Positions 2,725 through 13,737 of a DNA stretch of 64,000 nucleotides are shown here, piece by piece. The position numbers and the translations under genes were made by a program. Location of the stretch: contig CATOTF010000002.1 in NCBI GenBank assembly GCA_951813045.1, forward strand, positions 3,720,001 to 3,784,000, in the 5' to 3' direction. This stretch comes from an uncultured Rhizobiaceae bacterium. GTDB lineage: Bacteria > Pseudomonadota > Alphaproteobacteria > Rhizobiales > Rhizobiaceae. The notes beneath the pieces are model-generated. The model worked only from the letters and a program-made list of their open reading frames with translations. It had not been told where the DNA came from and made no database searches. Numbering within the stretch: the stretch's first letter is position 1; every line of letters starts with the position of its first letter.

Positions 2725-5700
2725 TTAACGCTGTTCAATTAGTGCCTCCTCGACACGATCAATTTCTAGTTGGAAGCCGAACTGCTTCACCATGTCTAGA
2801 GAAGCTCGCAATAACCTTCGACCCGTTTCATCCTGCTTACGCTGAAACATAGCCTTACCGTAAAGCGTGATGGCGGTTGCAAGACGCAAATTCATCTGAT
2901 TTCGCTTAGATTTTGCGATGACATCTTTCAATAGCTTTCCGGCAAGGCCGGTCTCTCCTTGATCTAACAGTAATGCAGCTCGAACATGGAGTGCTTCGCA
3001 CAACAATGTCGGCATATCCATAACCTCGGCATATCGCTCAATTTGGTGAAGATCACCGGTGAAACCACGCGCTACCACATCAGCATTCTTGATCTGGGCT
3101 CGAATACGGGCAAGACGCGCTTTGTGGTATAGGTCTTCATGACCGCCACGTTCAGCAGCGGCAAGCGCTTCTGCGTGATATAATGTTGCTTTCTCGGATT
3201 CAGCGGTATGTCTGAATAAATCACCCAAATGACGTGAAAAAATCGAAATACCTCTGCTGTCCTCCAGAGAGTGAAGGCGTTTGAGCGCGCGGTTGTATTG
3301 TTTTTCAGCTCGGCGAAATTGACCACGGAGGTGACTGACCAGTCCGCGATATCCATAGGCCAATGCTCTAACTGCACCGCCATCCTCACTGTTGACGATA
3401 ATGCTATCAAGCCGAGATGCTGCACTCTCCAACTTCCCGCGTTCAATTTGAACAACGGCAAGATTAATCCCTATGCGACAATGCTGGTCACCTCCGTCAC
3501 CTCGGCCTTCTATATCACGGTTGAGATGCATAGCCTGCCGCAAGAAATTGTGAGCGTCCGTTAAATTGCCCTGTACCAAACAAACAACTCCGCATTCGTT
3601 ATAGAGCCAAATTATTTCGTCGATGTAGAAAGGTTTTATGTGCCTTGGAGGTTCTTCCGGGCCCCGATTGTTGTCCTGTTCCTTATCAAGTGAGAATGCT
3701 TTTCTGAGTAACCAACGCAATTGGATACGATGTTCTTCAAAGCACCCAGCATGTTGAATACCTGCAATTCCATCAACTTTGTATTCTTCGAAACGTGAAA
3801 CTACGGCAACTGAGAACGTTGACCTTAGTATGCCGAGTGCAGCACGTAACGCCTGAATCCGAGTCGGCATCTCTGCTGTTCCAAAATGCCACGGCTCACC
3901 ATTAGTCGATAAAGCATGCCGGTCAGCGTATTCACTCAAATCAGCAACGAGTTCGCGCATAAAACGATAAGCTTCAGTACTGGGGCGTGGCAAGTCTCTC
4001 GGCATTGAACCATATAAAGTAGCCGCGTAATCATTTGCGTGAATGAATTCCGTTAAGGATCCGCCCATTTTTCGCATAACGTGGCGTTGAACGAGCCTAT
4101 GTAATGCATAACGATGTTGATTTTTTGGGTCATCCTGCAAGACTTCGCGATGATCCCCATCTTTTATTTCGTCTCCTTTCTGATACAATTTCTTTATCCG
4201 GGGGTGGGGAGATAATTTAAAAACCAGACCACATCGTTCCAAATAGTTCATCACCTGCCGCAATTCCAATGTCCTGCGATCGAGGCTTTTATCGGAGGCA
4301 AGGTCATGTGTGCGTATTGCAGAATGCCGGTCAAACCAGCGCCTAATTTCTGGTACACGGATCAACACATCGCAACTGGTCGGTTGTCCGATAACTGCGA
4401 GATGACGAATAACTGCCAAATGAAGATTAATATCTCGCATTGCGATACCTGAACGATGAAATCGTTCGTAAAGATCTAGCACGTTGGAAACTATGATCTC
4501 TTCTCGTCGCTCATCGCTGGCTGCATTAACTTGATCGATCACCGAATTCATAAATCGGTCAGCTTCACGTTTTGCATCGTCTACATCCACACAAAAGCGA
4601 GTGAGGAATTCTGTTGCTGCCAGCAGAATAGTAAAACTGAATCGATTGTACTGCAGCGCGCTTCTTAACCGAACCCAATCATTATGGGCATCCTTGTCTT
4701 TTTTTAATTTGACTTCGAAGGTGCTTTTATTTTTCCCATAATGCTGCAGGATCAGCTTTTGAAACGCTTTGTTATAAATCCCAGAAGTTTTAGCTTCATC
4801 AAAAGCAGAGTTGGGTCCCGAGATTCTCGGAATAAATTTTTCGCCAAAGGAATCTACAATTTGCTGCTTATGATGGTCAATGTCGCAACTGCGAGAAAAC
4901 TCTTCTGAATTCGGATTGAAATTATCTACTCTTTCACCTTTCATGAATTTGTGCGAACTAACTAAGGCCTTTCTCGCCTGATTCTTACTTAACGTATTCT
5001 GCTCTTGTGCAACCAACAAATGGCTTGCAAGTACGGGGAAATTGTCAGCCATGAATTGTTCTTGCTGCATGATTCTACAAATGTGAAGATACAAGCCCGG
5101 CGTAGGTTCGATTTTTGCGTTTTCTCCAATTAGCTTGCCGCCGCTTCGATAAGTGCTTCTTGCCATCAGCTTGGTATCTTTAAGTCGGCGAACCATTTGA
5201 GCAAGTCCAAATGCTTCAATTCCTGGACGCAACAGGAATTCAAAGACGGGTGCTCTTTCTCCTTTCCGTAAGAAGTCTGGGAGATTATTCTCCTCACACA
5301 CCATGATAAAATCTATGGGTAATCCGGCAAATTGAGATGAGTTAATAAGGTCGAAAGTTCGGCGGATTTGGTCGTTTTTTGATTGTCCACCATTTCCGAG
5401 CAAAGCATCAACAGGTGACAGGCAAACTAATATTCTTTTCTTATTTTTCCTGCCGTATTTCTTCCAATATTCAAGTAATTCTTTTAGGGTTTGCAACCTG
5501 GAAAGGTTTTTTACTTGTTTGCCGATTTCCGTAATTTGGGCGTCAAACTTCTCGCCCACCTCTTCCCCGCTTTCGATGCGAGCAATAGTCTCTATTATTG
5601 CTTGATTGACCATGTCCCAGGTTGATGAGGTCTCGGTTGAAAAGCTGTAATTGATAAATATAGCCGAAACATAATGGGGTTTTTGAGCCGGATACCAAGA

Positions 5701-8127
5701 CTTTTCGATGAAGGTGTGTAGTCCGGCACGGCTCTGCATGGCAGACATAAAGACCCCCTTACCCAGCCCACGATGAGCTGCAATAAAGAAAGTCCGACGG
5801 CCCTTATGAGCTTTGAGTGGCTTTCCAACTAGCGTAGAATCCAATGAAGCAAGAAAGGTGTCGACTGCGCGAACTCCTGTATAGGCAGCTTCTTCATTTT
5901 TGTCATGAGCTTTTTGTTCGAGCTCGAGAATCGATTTCTGGTCCGGCACCTTATTTGATAGAATCGTATATAGATTTTCGATGTGGTGCCGGACGTACCG
6001 GAAAGGTTCAATGCCGTATGTTTCTTCATTTTTTTGGTCATCCCTAAGAATATCGAAAGCCGGCACACGTTCCTTAGGTTTTTCCTGCCAATCGTTCCAC
6101 CAGCGCCTCCAGCGGGCGTCAAGATGACGAAGATTGGCTGAAAGAAAAATGGAATATATGGATTGTTTGATGCCATCCAAACCAGCTTGAACGGCTATGC
6201 AGTCCCGAATTAGGGCTTCAATCTGCGATTTTCTCTTATCGGGCGAAAAAAGATTTTTATAGTTCGTCTTCATGTCTTTAATAAATTGAGTAGGGTTTTC
6301 ATCCTTTGGAATAAACGGTTTAGCGGTAGACGTTTTTAAGTTCATAGCCGACCCACGATTTCGAATGATAGTCTCAAAGTTCTTCAGCAGGGCAAGTTCG
6401 AACTCTACATTTAGTTTCTCATCAGGCGTTGCTTTTCCAGTTTGCTGCTCAAACCGCAAAACCGGATCACCGTAACTCTTGAAAAATATTTCCACGATAC
6501 CGCGTTCACCAAAAAACTTCTGACCAGTTCCAAATGGCTTCAGTTGTTTATCATTAAGTCCTGCCAGAGAATTTAGAGATTGTTCAGCCACCCAGTCGTT
6601 CAATAGGGATGCCCTCATTTTTGGGGATATTCTTGTGAAACAAGTCTGCTTGAGCAGACTCCATTCACAATACATCGAACAGGCTTCGCGAAGAGCTTTC
6701 GTTGCGGAGTACTTTTTATCTTTTTCATTTCGGCGATTCATCTCAGGCTCAATCCGTCGAAGCGCTTTTAATTGCGCATTGTTTACTTCAGCCAATGTTG
6801 AAACGATATTTGAAAATAGGTGCAGCCATGAAATTTTGGTGCCGGTTGCCACTGCTTCTAACGATGCTGGTCCCTCACCAGCATTTGATTTTTCCAATTC
6901 GCAGTACGCATCTCCATAATATATAGGGAGAACCCCGAAGCGGGTGAATAAAGTGGACGCTTCGGCGCGCATTTGATCTTCGCTCTTGCTGCCGGGCAAC
7001 AATGCTATAGCAACCCTGTCCTTTCGCTTTTCCTGATCACTTACAAACTGCCTTAAAGGACGCATAACATCATCTTCAGTCATTCCGATGCCGAGAAATA
7101 GTACTGGGTTGGCTGAAAACGCCAGATCGATTGCTTCGTTGACCATATCACGTCGATCATCAGACTTCAGATAGAGGTTCATATAGTCACGCTCGGTCAG
7201 CACAATATCAGAATCTGCAGTTGCTAGACCGTGCAAATGAAATACCGAGCCGTCATTTCCTTCCAAATTCAACGTAAAGGACAGAAGATCGGCGGTGTGA
7301 TCCCTTTGAAAGGTTGTATCGGTGACCCGCCCTCCAAGGGCATCTATGCGAGGTTGTTGATCGCCAACTTCCTGGGGCGAAACACTGTGCCGGCTGATTT
7401 CATAACCACGATCATCAAGCATTCGCTCGATTTCCAGATCGTAATTGGTTGTAAGAAACTTATTAATCCCGAGATGCAAAGAAAGTTGAGACAATGGGTC
7501 CATTTTCTCGTGAATAATTGAATGACGACTGATGAAATCAATCTTTCTGATTTCATGGCGGAAATATTGCAAACTATTGGAGGCGCTTCCTTTCTTCGCG
7601 CGAATGTTTTTGAATGTGTTATTGTCCAACAAACACATAGGGTCGCTCAATTTCGATAATAACATACCCACGATAAAACGCCTCGTAGGTGTCCAGACAG
7701 ATCGAAGTCCGCCTCGTTTTTTTTCCTCATTTAGGTTACGAATGACCTTATAAGTTCCGGTCCATTGATCGTGTGCTACGTCCGTCTCAATGAGCTCACA
7801 CCAATTCAGAAGGTCAGTGACGCTTTCTTTCTTGAAGAATCCGAGTACCTGATACCGCGATGGTGTATCAGGTATCCCAGGAACGTTTCGGGTGAGACTA
7901 TCCGGATCAAGACTAGGGAAAGTTTCTTTGATTTGACCCCAGTTGTCCCGTCGGGTTGTAGATTGGCGTGTAGGTTTAGATCTCAGCTTTGGGATGCCTA
8001 AAGGTTTTAAAGAATCTGGATTGGTCAACGACTTACGCGGCCATTTGATCTCTATGATTGAACCTGGTCGACCTCCATCTGCAGCTGTTTTCCAGTCCTC
8101 ACGCCCATTCTCAGGCAAATATCGCAT
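2725..8127 (-). CDS. C-terminal fragment of SIR2-STAND-TPR protein
   Basis: A 1800-residue open frame from the first ATG beyond the IS21 end. The frame stays open into the IS on the antisense strand, but that part is not real coding sequence. Around residue 226 is TTNYD, around 298 HLHG, and around 345 LGIGMTEDD; these are the later half of a SIR2-type NAD-binding domain. Near residue 783 is AAHRGLGKG, a variant P-loop lacking the usual first Gly and final Ser/Thr. Near 901 is ILVCLSPVDALL, a Walker-B-like strand. From about 1555 to the end are helical pairs of TPR type (NECGVVCLVQGNLTDA, YRGLVSHLRGQFRRAE). It lacks its own upstream promoter and the GTGVS loop, which lies in 10617-11483. The region is richer in A and T than the flanking genes, which fits horizontal origin. 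Confidence 0.72.
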   Translation of the reverse strand: MRYLPENGREDWKTAADGGRPGSIIEIKWPRKSLTNPDSLKPLGIPKLRSKPTRQSTTRRDNWGQIKETFPSLDPDSLTRNVPGIPDTPSRYQVLGFFKKESVTDLLNWCELIETDVAHDQWTGTYKVIRNLNEEKKRGGLRSVWTPTRRFIVGMLLSKLSDPMCLLDNNTFKNIRAKKGSASNSLQYFRHEIRKIDFISRHSIIHEKMDPLSQLSLHLGINKFLTTNYDLEIERMLDDRGYEISRHSVSPQEVGDQQPRIDALGGRVTDTTFQRDHTADLLSFTLNLEGNDGSVFHLHGLATADSDIVLTERDYMNLYLKSDDRRDMVNEAIDLAFSANPVLFLGIGMTEDDVMRPLRQFVSDQEKRKDRVAIALLPGSKSEDQMRAEASTLFTRFGVLPIYYGDAYCELEKSNAGEGPASLEAVATGTKISWLHLFSNIVSTLAEVNNAQLKALRRIEPEMNRRNEKDKKYSATKALREACSMYCEWSLLKQTCFTRISPKMRASLLNDWVAEQSLNSLAGLNDKQLKPFGTGQKFFGERGIVEIFFKSYGDPVLRFEQQTGKATPDEKLNVEFELALLKNFETIIRNRGSAMNLKTSTAKPFIPKDENPTQFIKDMKTNYKNLFSPDKRKSQIEALIRDCIAVQAGLDGIKQSIYSIFLSANLRHLDARWRRWWNDWQEKPKERVPAFDILRDDQKNEETYGIEPFRYVRHHIENLYTILSNKVPDQKSILELEQKAHDKNEEAAYTGVRAVDTFLASLDSTLVGKPLKAHKGRRTFFIAAHRGLGKGVFMSAMQSRAGLHTFIEKSWYPAQKPHYVSAIFINYSFSTETSSTWDMVNQAIIETIARIESGEEVGEKFDAQITEIGKQVKNLSRLQTLKELLEYWKKYGRKNKKRILVCLSPVDALLGNGGQSKNDQIRRTFDLINSSQFAGLPIDFIMVCEENNLPDFLRKGERAPVFEFLLRPGIEAFGLAQMVRRLKDTKLMARSTYRSGGKLIGENAKIEPTPGLYLHICRIMQQEQFMADNFPVLASHLLVAQEQNTLSKNQARKALVSSHKFMKGERVDNFNPNSEEFSRSCDIDHHKQQIVDSFGEKFIPRISGPNSAFDEAKTSGIYNKAFQKLILQHYGKNKSTFEVKLKKDKDAHNDWVRLRSALQYNRFSFTILLAATEFLTRFCVDVDDAKREADRFMNSVIDQVNAASDERREEIIVSNVLDLYERFHRSGIAMRDINLHLAVIRHLAVIGQPTSCDVLIRVPEIRRWFDRHSAIRTHDLASDKSLDRRTLELRQVMNYLERCGLVFKLSPHPRIKKLYQKGDEIKDGDHREVLQDDPKNQHRYALHRLVQRHVMRKMGGSLTEFIHANDYAATLYGSMPRDLPRPSTEAYRFMRELVADLSEYADRHALSTNGEPWHFGTAEMPTRIQALRAALGILRSTFSVAVVSRFEEYKVDGIAGIQHAGCFEEHRIQLRWLLRKAFSLDKEQDNNRGPEEPPRHIKPFYIDEIIWLYNECGVVCLVQGNLTDAHNFLRQAMHLNRDIEGRGDGGDQHCRIGINLAVVQIERGKLESAASRLDSIIVNSEDGGAVRALAYGYRGLVSHLRGQFRRAEKQYNRALKRLHSLEDSRGISIFSRHLGDLFRHTAESEKATLYHAEALAAAERGGHEDLYHKARLARIRAQIKNADVVARGFTGDLHQIERYAEVMDMPTLLCEALHVRAALLLDQGETGLAGKLLKDVIAKSKRNQMNLRLATAITLYGKAMFQRKQDETGRRLLRASLDMVKQFGFQLEIDRVEEALIEQR

Positions 8128-8274
8128 TGCCGTCGTGATAATATGCTCAGCGTGGGAGCATTCGTTGTGAATCCCGGAGACAAAATGACCACAGAAATGG
8201 TTGGGTAATCTGACCGTCGCGGAGTAAAATTCCGCACTCTGACACCTTGTGCTTGTGAGTATTAGGTGGGGAAG

Positions 8275-9774
8275 ATGTATTCTGTGGATTTGTATAGTCG
8301 GGTGCGTCGAGCGTGCCATGTGGATGGGAAGAACAATAGCGAGGTGGCCCGTTTGTTCGGGATTGATCGCAAAACCGTGGCGAAGATCCTGAAGCACTCG
8401 GTTCCGCCCGGTTATCAAAGAACGACCGCGCCTGTTCGCCCGAAGTTGGATCCGTTTGTTGGGATAATTGATCAGATCCTGAAAGACGACAAAAAGGTCA
8501 TCAAAAAGCAACGGCACACAGCCAAGCGTATTCATGCGCGGTTACGGGATGAGCACGGGTTCACTGGCGGGATCACCATTGTCACTGATTATGTGCGTGA
8601 GAAGCAAAGACGAACCCAGGAGGTGTTTGTTCCTCTGGTTCACGCGCCCGGCCATGCTCAGGTCGATTTTGGTGAGACGTTCGGCGTGATCGACGGTGTC
8701 GAACGCAAGCTGCATTACATCGCTATATCGTTGCCGCATTCGGATGCGTTCTTCATGAAGGCGTATCCGGCGGAAACAACAGAAGCCTTCTGTGACGGTC
8801 ACAATGCTGCGTTTGCTTTCTTCGGCGGTGTGCCGTTGTCGATGCTCTACGACAACACCGTGATTGCAGTTGCAAAGATCCTGGGCGGTGGCAAACGGAT
8901 ACGCACGAGAACTTTCTCAGAGCTACAATCGCACTATCTGTTTGAGGATAAGTTTGGTCGCCCTGGCAAAGGCAATGATAAAGGGAATGTCGAAGGCGTC
9001 ATTGGTTACGGTCGCAGGAACTTTCTCATCCCAGCCCCACGGTTCGACAGCTTTGATGCCTTGAACGCCTGGTTGGAAGAATGCTGCCTGAAGCGTCAGG
9101 ATGATGTTGTTCGCGGACATGGTGAGAGTATTGGTGAACGATTGCTGAGAGACCTGGACGCGCTGATGGCATTGCCCCCAACGCCATACGACGCGTGTGA
9201 AAAGTTTAGCACGCGGGCAACGTCAATCTCGATGATCCGCTACCGCAATAATGATTACTCCGTTCCTGTCGCCTTTGCCCATCATGAGGTTCAGGTTCGC
9301 GGTTACATCCATGAGGTTGTGATTGGCAGTGGAACCGAGATTATTGCCCGCCATCGTCGGTCTTATGAGAAGGCAGACATGATCTTCGACCCGCTTCACT
9401 ATCTGCCCTTGCTGGAACAAAAGGTAGGTGCTCTCGATCAGGCGGCACCATTGCAAGGCTGGGGTTTACCCGATGCATTTGCGATCCTTCATCGTTTATT
9501 AGAAGCCCGCATGGGTAAGGCGGGAAAACGCGAGTATGTTCAGATCCTGCGTCTGCTGGAAACTTTTGAGCTGGAGCACGTTCACGCCGCAATCCAACAA
9601 GCTTTGGATCTGGGTGCCATTGGCTATGATGCGATCAAGCACCTTATTCTGTGCCGGATCGAGCGGCGACCGCCCAGGCTTGATCTCGACATCTACCCCT
9701 ATTTGCCCAAAGCGGTGGTCGAGACGACAAAACCTGCCAGCTATGCCGTGCTGTTGTCGGAGGCGGCAGCATGA
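8275..9774 (+). CDS. istA: IS21-family transposase IstA
   Basis: Integrase-type DDE transposase. The N-terminus has a helix-turn-helix (NNSEVARLFGIDRKTVAKIL), and the retroviral-integrase core begins at HAPGHAQVDFGETFG, with MLYDNTV carrying the second acidic residue. ATG 8275 (MYSVDLYSRVRRAC) fits other IstA proteins and has AGGTGGGG upstream; a GTG at 8266 is the alternative. The stop overlaps the istB start. The gene is intact, so the element may still move. It acts with IstB to assemble the transposition complex. Confidence 0.92.
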   Translation: MYSVDLYSRVRRACHVDGKNNSEVARLFGIDRKTVAKILKHSVPPGYQRTTAPVRPKLDPFVGIIDQILKDDKKVIKKQRHTAKRIHARLRDEHGFTGGITIVTDYVREKQRRTQEVFVPLVHAPGHAQVDFGETFGVIDGVERKLHYIAISLPHSDAFFMKAYPAETTEAFCDGHNAAFAFFGGVPLSMLYDNTVIAVAKILGGGKRIRTRTFSELQSHYLFEDKFGRPGKGNDKGNVEGVIGYGRRNFLIPAPRFDSFDALNAWLEECCLKRQDDVVRGHGESIGERLLRDLDALMALPPTPYDACEKFSTRATSISMIRYRNNDYSVPVAFAHHEVQVRGYIHEVVIGSGTEIIARHRRSYEKADMIFDPLHYLPLLEQKVGALDQAAPLQGWGLPDAFAILHRLLEARMGKAGKREYVQILRLLETFELEHVHAAIQQALDLGAIGYDAIKHLILCRIERRPPRLDLDIYPYLPKAVVETTKPASYAVLLSEAAA

Positions 9775-10547
9775 ACGACACTGTTACCGATACACCGCAA
9801 GTTCTACTCAAACATCATCTGACCAAACTTCGGCTGCCAACCTTCCAGAGTGAATATACCAAACAGGCCCAACAATGTGCCGCTGAGAATAAGGATCATG
9901 TCCAATATCTCCTGCGGTTATGTGAGTTGGAGCTGATTGAACGTGAGCGCCGAATGGTGGAGCGACGCATCAAAGCTGCGAAGTTCCCGGCAACCAAGAG
10001 CCTCGACAGCTTTGACTTCAAAACGATCCCGTCAGTGAACAAGGTGCTCGTGATGGAACTGGCCCGTTGCGAGTACGCTGCGAAACGCCAAAACATCATC
10101 GCGTTAGGACCAAGTGGAACCGGCAAAACCCATGTTGCCCTCGGCCTTGGACTGGCTGCCTGCCAAAAGGGGATGAAAGTCCGCTTCACCACGGCTGCTG
10201 CACTGGTTCATGAGATGATCGAGGCCGTTGATGAACGTCGCTTGCAACGGCATCAAAAACAACTGGCAGCTCAAGACCTGCTGATCATTGACGAACTGGG
10301 CTTCGTCCCTCTCTCCAAAACCGGGGCGGAGTTGCTGTTCGAAGTAATCAGCCAACGGTATGAACGCGGTTCCATCATCATCACATCCAATCTACCATTC
10401 GACGAATGGACAGAGGTCTTCGGATCAGAACGCCTAACGGGCGCAATACTCGACCGGCTGACACACCACGTCCACATCCTGGAGATGAATGGTGAAAGCT
10501 ACAGGTTGCACCAGAGCCGAAAACAAAAATCTGTTCAAATCAACTGA
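9771..10547 (+). CDS. istB: IS21-family helper ATPase IstB
   Basis: AAA+ ATPase related to DnaC, 258 residues, a standard length for IstB. Walker A is GPSGTGKTH near residue 114 and Walker B is LLIIDELGF near 170; ITSNLPFDEW is the sensor-1 region. IstB selects target DNA and stimulates IstA. Its start ATG overlaps the istA TGA (ATGA at 9771-9774), which suggests translational coupling. Confidence 0.93.
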   Translation: MNDTVTDTPQVLLKHHLTKLRLPTFQSEYTKQAQQCAAENKDHVQYLLRLCELELIERERRMVERRIKAAKFPATKSLDSFDFKTIPSVNKVLVMELARCEYAAKRQNIIALGPSGTGKTHVALGLGLAACQKGMKVRFTTAAALVHEMIEAVDERRLQRHQKQLAAQDLLIIDELGFVPLSKTGAELLFEVISQRYERGSIIITSNLPFDEWTEVFGSERLTGAILDRLTHHVHILEMNGESYRLHQSRKQKSVQIN

Positions 10548-10616
10548 CACTAAACCAGATCAAAAACACAAACGTCCCAAAATCTGGCCAATTTTACTCC
10601 GGGATCAAGACCCATT

Positions 10617-11483
10617 TTAGGCTGGGATTGACAATTCGTCATATACAAGATGCTTTGAGTAGTCTTTGAACTTCAGATTACTACCACGTCGACGTAGCAC
10701 GTCGTGGTAGATTTCGAAGGCTTCTTTAAACTTATCCTTTAAAGGCCCGCTATCCGCTTCATTAAAAGATTTATCGAATTCGTCCCACAACATATATTGG
10801 CCATCAGGTTCTCCATCAGCCAGATAGCCAAGCTCGCATCTTTCAAAATCACTGCGCCAATCGTATCCTAACGGACCGCCGCGAAATTTACCCTTAATCT
10901 TAGGCCGATTGATATAAAGCGCCTCGGATTCTTGCAATGCGTCCTGAAGACGTTTAGCAATCTGAAATTGGATAGGATAAGTTTCACTTCCCAATACACC
11001 TTTGGATTTTTTTAAAGATTGGAAGTTTTTGTGCAGGTGTTCAATTTCTGCCAGTCGATAAACGATTTCGTCTTTTTTGATGCGCAAATGGTTCATTAAT
11101 GTGCGATTTGGCACTGCACCGTCTTCCTGCACCAGTATCGGATCTGGTGGGCTATCAAGATGATCAATGACTTTATTGAGATAATTCTTCGACGCATTGG
11201 CTACCGAAATGAAAGCATTAGATACATCTTCCACGTCACCCAATTGTTTTTCGACAAGTTGTTGCCAACTCATCCTGCCATAGGCCGCTGATACGCCCGT
11301 ACCTACAAAAGCTACCAGACTTTGTGTATTGAGTGCTCGAAAGAGAAGTTCATGGGCTCTTCCCTGTAAAAGGTCGAGATCAAGAGTTTCCTCTATTGCG
11401 TTCAGCGCATAAGGCCATTCTTTCAGTGCGGCGTGATTCTGTTCAAATAGTTCCTTTGTGTCTTTAGAAGATTCGTCGACCAT
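10617..11483 (-). CDS. N-terminal fragment of SIR2-STAND-TPR protein
   Basis: 288-residue frame with a good start: ATG 11483 is preceded by GGGGGAACA. Residues 49-75 (LLFRALNTQSLVAFVGTGVS, then AAYGRMSWQQLV) match the first strand and glycine loop of SIR2-like NADase domains in bacterial immunity proteins. The remaining residues are an alpha-helical insertion typical of these large SIR2 domains. The frame ends PA-TAA only 8 bases before the IS21 end. The missing domain parts continue in 2725-8127 on the far side of the element, in a frame offset by one base. A truncated product without the second half of the SIR2 fold should not bind NAD+. Confidence 0.72.
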   Translation of the reverse strand: MVDESSKDTKELFEQNHAALKEWPYALNAIEETLDLDLLQGRAHELLFRALNTQSLVAFVGTGVSAAYGRMSWQQLVEKQLGDVEDVSNAFISVANASKNYLNKVIDHLDSPPDPILVQEDGAVPNRTLMNHLRIKKDEIVYRLAEIEHLHKNFQSLKKSKGVLGSETYPIQFQIAKRLQDALQESEALYINRPKIKGKFRGGPLGYDWRSDFERCELGYLADGEPDGQYMLWDEFDKSFNEADSGPLKDKFKEAFEIYHDVLRRRGSNLKFKDYSKHLVYDELSIPA

Positions 11484-12051: not shown

Positions 12052-13737
12052 ATGGTAACCAGCTCAAAGCAATCACATGCATTGAAACGAAATTTGTTAG
12101 CGGTGCTTGCCGCCGACATTGTTGGATACACGCGCCTCATGGGCGCGGATGCGGAAAATACCATTTCCAACCTCCATCGGGTGAGAGGTGAAATCTTTAC
12201 TCCTATTGTTGCGGCAAAACGAGGCCGTCTGATAAAATCGATGGGTGATGGTTGGATTGTGACGTTTACCTCGGTGGCAGAAGCCGTTGAGTGCGCAATG
12301 CAAATTCAAGATCAAATAAAAACTGACGGTATCATTCAGCTGCGAATGGGTATCCATCTGGGCGACGTGTCAGAGGCCAACGAGGATGTCTTTGGTGATG
12401 GCGTTAACGTGGCTTCCAGACTACAGGCATTAGCTGAACCTGGAGCGCTGGTGATATCTGACGCCGCCAGAATATTGCTGGACGGTACGTTGCGCCTGTC
12501 ATTCGATGATGCGGGCAATCAGGTGCTGAAGAATGTCGAAGAACCTGTTCGGGTCTGGACGCGTGGCGGTGAAATTGCAGGCGCTGAAGCTTCACTAAAG
12601 CCCATGGGCTTTCCTACGCTGTCAATTAGGCCGGTCGAAGCTGGAAACCAACAGACAGAGATTCAGGAACTCGCTTCGGCGTTAACCGGCGGTTTGGCTT
12701 CCATACTAAACGCGCCTCGTTACATCCACGCTCGCATCAGCAACCAGAAGCAAACAGGTGGCTACGTGTTGACCAGTAAACTGCGCACTAGCGGTGATCG
12801 GTTCAGATTGGAAGCCAGTCTGACAAATAGCGCCAACCAGATCATCTTTCATGAAAAATACGACGGTGATTTCGACAATGTTTTTGACTGGCAGGACGAT
12901 GTGAATGTTGCACTGGCGAATTCGGTTGTTCGTAACCTGATAGTTGCAGAAAGCGAGAGTTGCCGGAAAATTCCGGAGGCCTCCAGAACAGCCGAACAAT
13001 GGCTTGTTATCAGTCACTCGATTGACGGATTGTCACTCTCGACGGCCCGCGAAATTTTGAATTGCTCGATGTGCGCGATCGAGGCAAACTCAAATTTCGG
13101 CTATGCTTACGCCCATGGCTTGGCCATGGTCGCCCTAATTTCCGCAGTATGGGGGCCTCAGCATTACAGCGATTTGGATATTCCGCTCGAGAAATGGATG
13201 GAGGCAGCCGATCGCCTTGAACCATCACACTCTCCCAGCAGATTACAAATGGCATTCTTCCAATTGACGCGAACCGGGGATGCAGAAAAAGTGAAAGCTG
13301 CTCTCAATACATCGCTACGGGTTATCCCGTTTAACCCAGAAGCACTGCAATACGCAGGCTGGCTAAACATATACCTTGGAAATGCGGAGCGAGCACTGGA
13401 CTGCTTCCATTCGATCCAAAAGGAGGTAACCAACTTCGGTTTTGAAGCAGGGACACCAGCCGGTATCGGACGGGCGCATTTACAACTCGGCAGTTTTGAG
13501 GAGGCAATAACCTACTTTGATGACGCTCTAGATCTCGCTCCCGAGTTTTTAACTCCGCTCAGAGGAAAAATTTCAGCACTTGCCCATTTAAAACACCACG
13601 CAGAAGCGAAAAAAATGTTAGAAAAGCTGCCTTTGGATGAGACATTGACTAAACTCAAGTCGCAAAACAGCTATGTGGAATCGGAAGAAATCAGTTTGTA
13701 TTTAGAAGGCTTGCGCATTGGAGGCATGCCTGAATAA
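12052..13737 (+). CDS. Class III adenylate/guanylate cyclase with TPR C-terminus
   Basis: Makes a cyclic nucleotide second messenger from ATP (likely) or GTP, in the cytoplasm. The catalytic domain spans about residues 14-175: metal-binding Asp22 in LAADIVGYT and Asp66 in KSMGDGW, the base-selecting Lys62 and Asp116 (FGDGVN), and the transition-state pair Asn119/Arg123 in NVASR. All catalytic residues are present and the Lys/Asp pair points to ATP. A middle part (about 190-300) resembles the TolB-like or adenylate-cyclase-associated region. Residues 400-530 form TPR-like helices (ALQYAGWLNIYLGNAERALDC). No membrane segment is seen. It sits alone between two copies of an amidotransferase/flavoprotein remnant, a sign of past duplication or insertion. 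Confidence 0.85.
   Translation: MVTSSKQSHALKRNLLAVLAADIVGYTRLMGADAENTISNLHRVRGEIFTPIVAAKRGRLIKSMGDGWIVTFTSVAEAVECAMQIQDQIKTDGIIQLRMGIHLGDVSEANEDVFGDGVNVASRLQALAEPGALVISDAARILLDGTLRLSFDDAGNQVLKNVEEPVRVWTRGGEIAGAEASLKPMGFPTLSIRPVEAGNQQTEIQELASALTGGLASILNAPRYIHARISNQKQTGGYVLTSKLRTSGDRFRLEASLTNSANQIIFHEKYDGDFDNVFDWQDDVNVALANSVVRNLIVAESESCRKIPEASRTAEQWLVISHSIDGLSLSTAREILNCSMCAIEANSNFGYAYAHGLAMVALISAVWGPQHYSDLDIPLEKWMEAADRLEPSHSPSRLQMAFFQLTRTGDAEKVKAALNTSLRVIPFNPEALQYAGWLNIYLGNAERALDCFHSIQKEVTNFGFEAGTPAGIGRAHLQLGSFEEAITYFDDALDLAPEFLTPLRGKISALAHLKHHAEAKKMLEKLPLDETLTKLKSQNSYVESEEISLYLEGLRIGGMPE

Follow-up and report, generated by a model that had tools for sequence, protein, structure and literature searches.

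A giant SIR2-NTPase-TPR gene, probably of antiphage type, interrupted by a single IS21-family insertion in a Rhizobiaceae genome

The DNA analysed here (the window; 64,000 nucleotides, G000:C2:3720001-3784000) comes from the 4.84 Mb, two-contig genome of an uncultured Rhizobiaceae bacterium and carries, in two pieces, a giant gene with SIR2, nucleoside triphosphatase (NTPase)-like and TPR regions. In our assessment this is probably an antiphage-type NAD+ hydrolase (NADase) gene of an unnamed SIR2-NTPase-TPR family, interrupted by one recent insertion of an IS21-family element with a 6-bp target duplication and no frameshift. The structure of the gene, the boundaries of the insertion, the intact relatives, the conserved catalytic residues, the non-standard P-loop found throughout the family and the TPRs were all established directly.

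The two pieces, at 2725-8165 and 10634-11483 on the minus strand, make up one gene flanking an istA/istB element, and each includes one copy of the target duplication. The N-terminal piece (10634-11483) aligns with residues 7-277 of L085, an intact relative of 2026 amino acids (159 of 278 columns identical), and the C-terminal piece (2725-8165) with residues 281-2025 of the same protein (965 of 1831). Neither piece contains an internal stop. Beyond the ends of the insertion sequence (IS), the two flanks read open in a shared frame and run collinearly with L085, which bears out the proposal of an earlier, sequence-only reading of this DNA that an IS21 element had split a single gene. The point of insertion lies inside the SIR2 domain: the GxGxS loop that binds NAD (FVGTGVSAAYG, 11277-11309, on the minus strand like all the features that follow) is on the N-terminal piece, and on the other side a SIR2_2 match (PF13289, 6964-7461, E=2e-17, over the Pfam cut-off) encloses TTNYD (7438-7452), HLHG (7228-7239) and the GxGM motif (GIGMTED, 7072-7092). 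The C-terminal piece further contains the P-loop-like AAHRGLGKG of the NTPase-like module (5755-5781) and a TPR region (2899-3456), of which the TPR_MalT match (E=4.4e-5) is below its cut-off in the window protein; a TPR_12 match in this piece (E=3.4e-6, 27.6 bits) is similarly under Pfam's cut-off of 30.1. The GC content is about 0.43-0.47 in segments within the gene, as against 0.48-0.58 in most segments of the flanks.

The interrupting element (8166-10633, plus strand, 2468 bp) ends in imperfect inverted repeats and encodes an istA-type transposase (8266-9774, plus strand; Mu-transpos_C_2 E=3.8e-20, rve 3.2e-5) and an istB-type ATPase (9771-10547, plus strand; IstB_IS21 E=1.5e-77). It is flanked by a perfect 6-bp duplication, which reads ATTCGT on the plus strand (8160-8165 and 10634-10639) and ACGAAT on the minus strand. 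The overlapping istA and istB open reading frames (ORFs), their domain matches, the terminal inverted repeats and the short target duplication are those of the IS21 family. The genome holds 31 full-length copies of 8166-10633 that are 100% identical, the window copy counted, together with one partial and one distant match; the 30 copies examined as individual loci were exact in every case (30/30). The boundaries of the IS are fixed because these 31 identical 2468-bp copies share them. At the 30 loci the target duplication is a perfect 6 bp in 13 (window copy counted), 1 bp in one and absent in 16, and the pattern at the 17 copies without a full duplication is the one expected from recombination between copies. 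Five of the copies (L024-L028, G000:C2:4398684-4449794), which lie outside the window near a contig end, have flanks in common in a shuffled arrangement, with two pairs identical; this points to a segment that has been repeated or rearranged, or else to an effect of assembly.

In an empty-site view built from 60 bases of each flank and one copy of the duplication, one of the three frames is open and reads ...RRGSNLKFKDYSKHLVYDECSHAEHII..., matching ...RRGSNLKFKDYSKQLVYDECAHAEHIL... in the intact relative. The sequence-only reading had placed the ends of the IS too far inward, by tens of bases, and had accordingly called for a frameshift, to be mended by a single C, and for a duplicated GACC in place of the actual 6-bp target. 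The apparent frameshift is an artefact of these misplaced ends, because the linker residues ('PALKW', 'VRLPNHFCGHF' and 'VSGIH') come from the ends of the IS, and the stop closing the ORF at 10617-11483 is likewise IS DNA. In a first search, the 18-42 residues after the junction so assumed matched elsewhere in the same genome; all six of these places hold further copies of the IS, which have a common terminus up to ...GGGATTCACA and diverge directly beyond it. That the gene was broken jointly by a frameshift and by an IS insertion that duplicated 4 bp is therefore almost certainly wrong: the ORF at 10617-11483 does stop just ahead of the assumed junction, but both stop and linker are in terminal DNA common to other copies, the flanks share one frame, and the 31 identical copies already refute the frameshift. 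Scarcely more credible is a split copy that still functions, e.g., as a pair of polypeptides or once the IS has been lost. Both pieces do remain free of stops, but the identity of the IS copies suggests merely a recent insertion; moreover, it separates the SIR2 motifs, and the C-terminal piece lacks an evident start of its own apart from an IS-borne frame. We infer that the split copy is inactive. The break itself is ordinary, a single IS21-family insertion that is one among 31 identical copies; this connects the damage with a burst of a single IS and corrects how the broken gene is to be read.

Intact relatives were sought among 61 genomes (that of the window and 60 others). The N- and C-terminal pieces each match the same four other genomes, and the open frames that the two pieces hit agree in length, both halves lying in a single frame of 2031 residues in G001, 2371 in G012 (where the family ORF, 2363 residues, is at 3738-10829 of contig C1), 1785 in G057 and 1593 in G046. 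The intact homologue spanning the junction that the sequence-only reading had advised searching for is thus found as one ORF in 4 of 60 related genomes, and the layout that it had given a restored gene of about 2100 codons, SIR2-NTPase-TPR, is seen in the intact relatives. The same single ORFs rule out two naturally separate proteins. Presence of the family varies within the genus, with matches in two of the 14 other genomes. Its location probably varies as well, although contig breaks leave doubt: part of the gene's flank, at ~15.3-19.2 kb of the window, is on contig C16 of G001, of which the SIR2 gene is on C14, and the same flank is found in G003, a genome without a family match.

A class-wide profile search at E<=1e-5 recovered the family in 11 of 385 genomes, own genome counted and several matches being short and partial. 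A scan of GTDB contigs yielded 32 loci, mostly from Alphaproteobacteria by their titles, and at 27 of them one ORF reaches 1300 residues or more; intact members occur, e.g., in Stappia stellulata, Hoeflea poritis and the L085 metagenome-assembled genome. The family-wide counts given below refer to these 27 long homologues and leave out L104, L110, L111, L112 and L116, where no ORF of that length was called; L103 and L106 are identical, so that the 27 amount to 26 different sequences. The contigs of these two, from similarly named isolates, are labelled Binataceae and Xanthobacteraceae, a clash that is probably a binning error. The family was present in 2 of 72,556 plasmid records; it had no match in a collection of phage records, and none of 141 pattern stretches on viral contigs was confirmed as a giant SIR2 gene.

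In the alignment of the 27 homologues, numbered by L085, the residues T472, N474, D476, H545 and E597 are invariant and Pfam detects SIR2_2 (PF13289) in every member. The first glycine of the NAD-binding loop is likewise present in all 27, and the second in 24. The loop-to-N distance is 388-494 residues in the 18 members of at least 2026 residues and 148-309 in the other nine. In a structural model of residues 1-700 of L085 (mean predicted local distance difference test score, pLDDT, 76.9), a long helical insert separates SIR2 elements; among the PDB matches of this model ThsA ranks best (E=2.2e-3), and KomC appears lower in the list (probability 0.96-1.00). A profile search of PDB sequences recovered chains of KomC and of the ThsA type, which match over the loop (best E=2e-11), and the PADLOC models matching the SIR2 part are ThsA, LmuA, Dsr1, PDC-S25, PDC-S65 and two named SIR2.

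The unusual P-loop to which the sequence-only reading had drawn attention is a signature of the family. The motif GxG[K/R]G occurs in 27/27 members (Lys in 24, Arg in three), and GxGKG is also seen in L104 and L111 outside this set. The position of the Walker A Ser/Thr is Gly in all 27, none of which has the canonical GxxxxGK[ST]; the residue following that Gly is Ser in nine, Thr in seven and another in 11 (Ser/Thr in 16/27). Adenylate kinases have GKGT. At E<=0.01 Pfam found nSTAND3 (PF20720) or any other STAND model in none of the 27 homologues, the nSTAND3 model itself matching strongly elsewhere (best E=6.6e-47), and it found TPR_12 in 23 and AAA_22 in two. The model of L085 residues 880-2026 (pLDDT 81.2) combines an alpha/beta core with a long array of helical repeats, and the STAND-TPR protein 6mfv (E=3.7e-8) heads its PDB matches, ahead of TPR and other helical-repeat proteins among the 50 listed. 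The NTPase module is likely STAND-like, short of proof. A likely mechanism for the intact relatives begins with the binding of a phage component to the TPR part, upon which the NTPase-like module, probably binding nucleotide without the standard Walker A Ser/Thr, would change conformation or assemble; the SIR2 domain would then hydrolyse NAD+, stopping the infected cell.

An AAA partner gene of ~700 codons adjoins the giant gene at eight of the 32 loci (L086, L090, L091, L092, L093, L098, L101 and L102), a lower bound given that some loci lack a full upstream flank. It lies upstream on the same strand in seven (overlapping or at most 301 bp away) and is divergent in one. The AAA part has the Walker A motif GxPG[A/S]GKS and a DEFDS box invariant in the seven proteins aligned; the best Pfam AAA match among the six scanned is E=1.6e-4, and the L091 protein, with its long spurious N-terminus, gave none. 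PADLOC had no match to four partner proteins. To the eye the N-terminus resembles PfkB, a likeness matched by no model. The family member on a plasmid of Methylobacterium sp. FF17 has a divergent partner homologue (L141:1567-4299), annotated as an 'RyR domain-containing protein', with a C-terminal RyR domain (E=1.1e-14); a literature search on RyR domains with SIR2 and AAA found nothing. A profile of the partner matched all three positive-control genomes and none of the 385 class genomes, including G440, G282 and G307, which carry the giant gene; in the window's genome it matches only a 30-residue Walker-type piece. The window gene and L085 both stand alone, without a partner. Conversely, one Streptomyces plasmid has a partner homologue and no SIR2-annotated gene within 10 kb, and none of 93 pattern stretches on viral contigs was confirmed as a partner. 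On a quick tree of the family the partner label requires five changes, and about 30 of 500 shuffles were as low; given a long-branch warning, the clustering of the partner is only suggestive.

These features make the family more interesting than the pseudogene: it is intact elsewhere, unnamed in the libraries tested, and has a non-standard P-loop and an optional AAA partner. The invariant Gly, at a position held by Ser/Thr in most P-loop ATPases, raises the question of how an NLR-like switch works without the standard nucleotide chemistry, to which the optional partner offers a testable answer. As a tentative extension, the family may be a distinct one of giant immune NADases, with a nucleotide switch that uses the invariant GxG[K/R]G loop in place of Walker A and, in a subset of hosts, a two-gene organization in which the PfkB-like/AAA partner (with an RyR domain in one plasmid copy) would supply the active ATPase or sense the ADP-ribose produced. 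The intact natural relatives pointed out here belong to a family that no tested PADLOC or NCBIfam model names.

Two further genes border the split gene in the window. A second transposase (DUF772, DDE_Tnp_1_6; 1020-2435) ends ~290 bp beyond its 3' end, and an adenylate/guanylate cyclase-TPR protein of 561 residues (12052-13737, opposite strand) adjoins its 5' end; the matches of the latter to Pycsar cyclases are weak (best E=0.0028).

For every member of the family, NADase activity, phage sensing and abortive infection are what we infer, and several points weigh against an antiphage NADase. None of the SIR2 fold matches falls below E=0.001, their TM-scores by query are 0.15-0.19, and the helical insert causes designed helix bundles to appear among them. 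The TPRs may drive the match to 6mfv, leaving 'STAND' unproven, and when the NTPase slice was compared with nSTAND3 proteins by hhalign the probability was 0.9%, a weak test in that nSTAND3 against IstB or the partner AAA reached only 11-13%. No PADLOC or NCBIfam model names the family, NCBIfam having no match over its cut-off to the four proteins searched. Moreover, in a PADLOC scan of ten hand-picked neighbouring proteins (four of them partner genes), no systematic survey, six had no match and only two matched strongly. Among the matches were PtuA (Septu), encoded 2 kb away from the copy in Ahrensia R2A130 (E=2.8e-263), an REase_II-like protein adjoining L098 (2.3e-27), a neighbour of L088 with many ATPase models at the domain level (best 2e-20) and a neighbour of L085 with one weak model (8.1e-5). 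A SIR2 giant with some other regulatory or stress role would fit the several neighbourhoods that resemble housekeeping genes and the lack of copies on the viral contigs or in the phage records; however, we consider it distinctly unlikely, as the SIR2 matches are to defence NADases, the spread is patchy (11 of 385 class genomes), two plasmids carry copies, and PtuA lies beside one copy.

An antiphage-type NADase can be compared with several established systems. The PADLOC model for ThsA of Thoeris (SIR2-SLOG) matches the SIR2 part in 27/27 and ThsA is its best fold match, but the family has an NTPase-like module and TPRs in place of SLOG: Pfam detected no SLOG in residues 1-700 and 880-2026 of L085 or the matching slices of 26 homologues, or in the window's C-terminal piece, which covers the region of L085 residues 701-879. 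DSR1 and DSR2 also have SIR2 in a large protein, and the Dsr1 model matches the SIR2 part of 25/27 members, although in L085 this match is limited to residues 538-615 of SIR2. The remaining DSR layout differs from that of the family. KomC, a SIR2 NADase, resembles the family in fold and in the profile match over the loop, whereas it is a stand-alone chain of 264 residues. Among the papers that the literature searches listed, no title or beginning of an abstract describes the present family.

The closest likeness is to Avs5 (AVAST type 5), which excerpts of PMC12931631 present as a SIR2-nSTAND3-repeat protein, i.e., a SIR2 effector, central NTPase and C-terminal repeat sensor in one large protein; for PaAvs5-1 they give GAGXS at 24-28, TTNXD at 108-112, a Walker A GPAGSGKT at 357-364 in which G362 and K363 are required, and a Walker B-like motif that has a single acidic residue. 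The family has the N-terminal SIR2 with its motifs (27/27; cut by the IS in the window) and the C-terminal TPR-type repeats, so the label 'Avs5-like' of the sequence-only reading holds for the layout. It does not hold for the nSTAND3 module (0/27), for the Walker A Ser/Thr (Gly in 27/27) or for PADLOC, which gave no Avs-named match. The absent nSTAND3 and non-standard Walker A rule out direct filing as Avs5. A divergent Avs5 branch, in which nSTAND3 has drifted beyond detection by profiles, would account for the same domain order and SIR2 motifs, and for a STAND-TPR protein being the top fold match of the C-terminal part. We nevertheless hold it to be rather unlikely in view of the differences just listed and of the loop-to-N spacing, 148-494 residues in the family against ~85 in PaAvs5-1 by the same excerpts; the family also differs in its larger SIR2 insert and its optional AAA partner gene. 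Membership of Avs5 is unsupported; in its mode of action the family most likely resembles Avs5.

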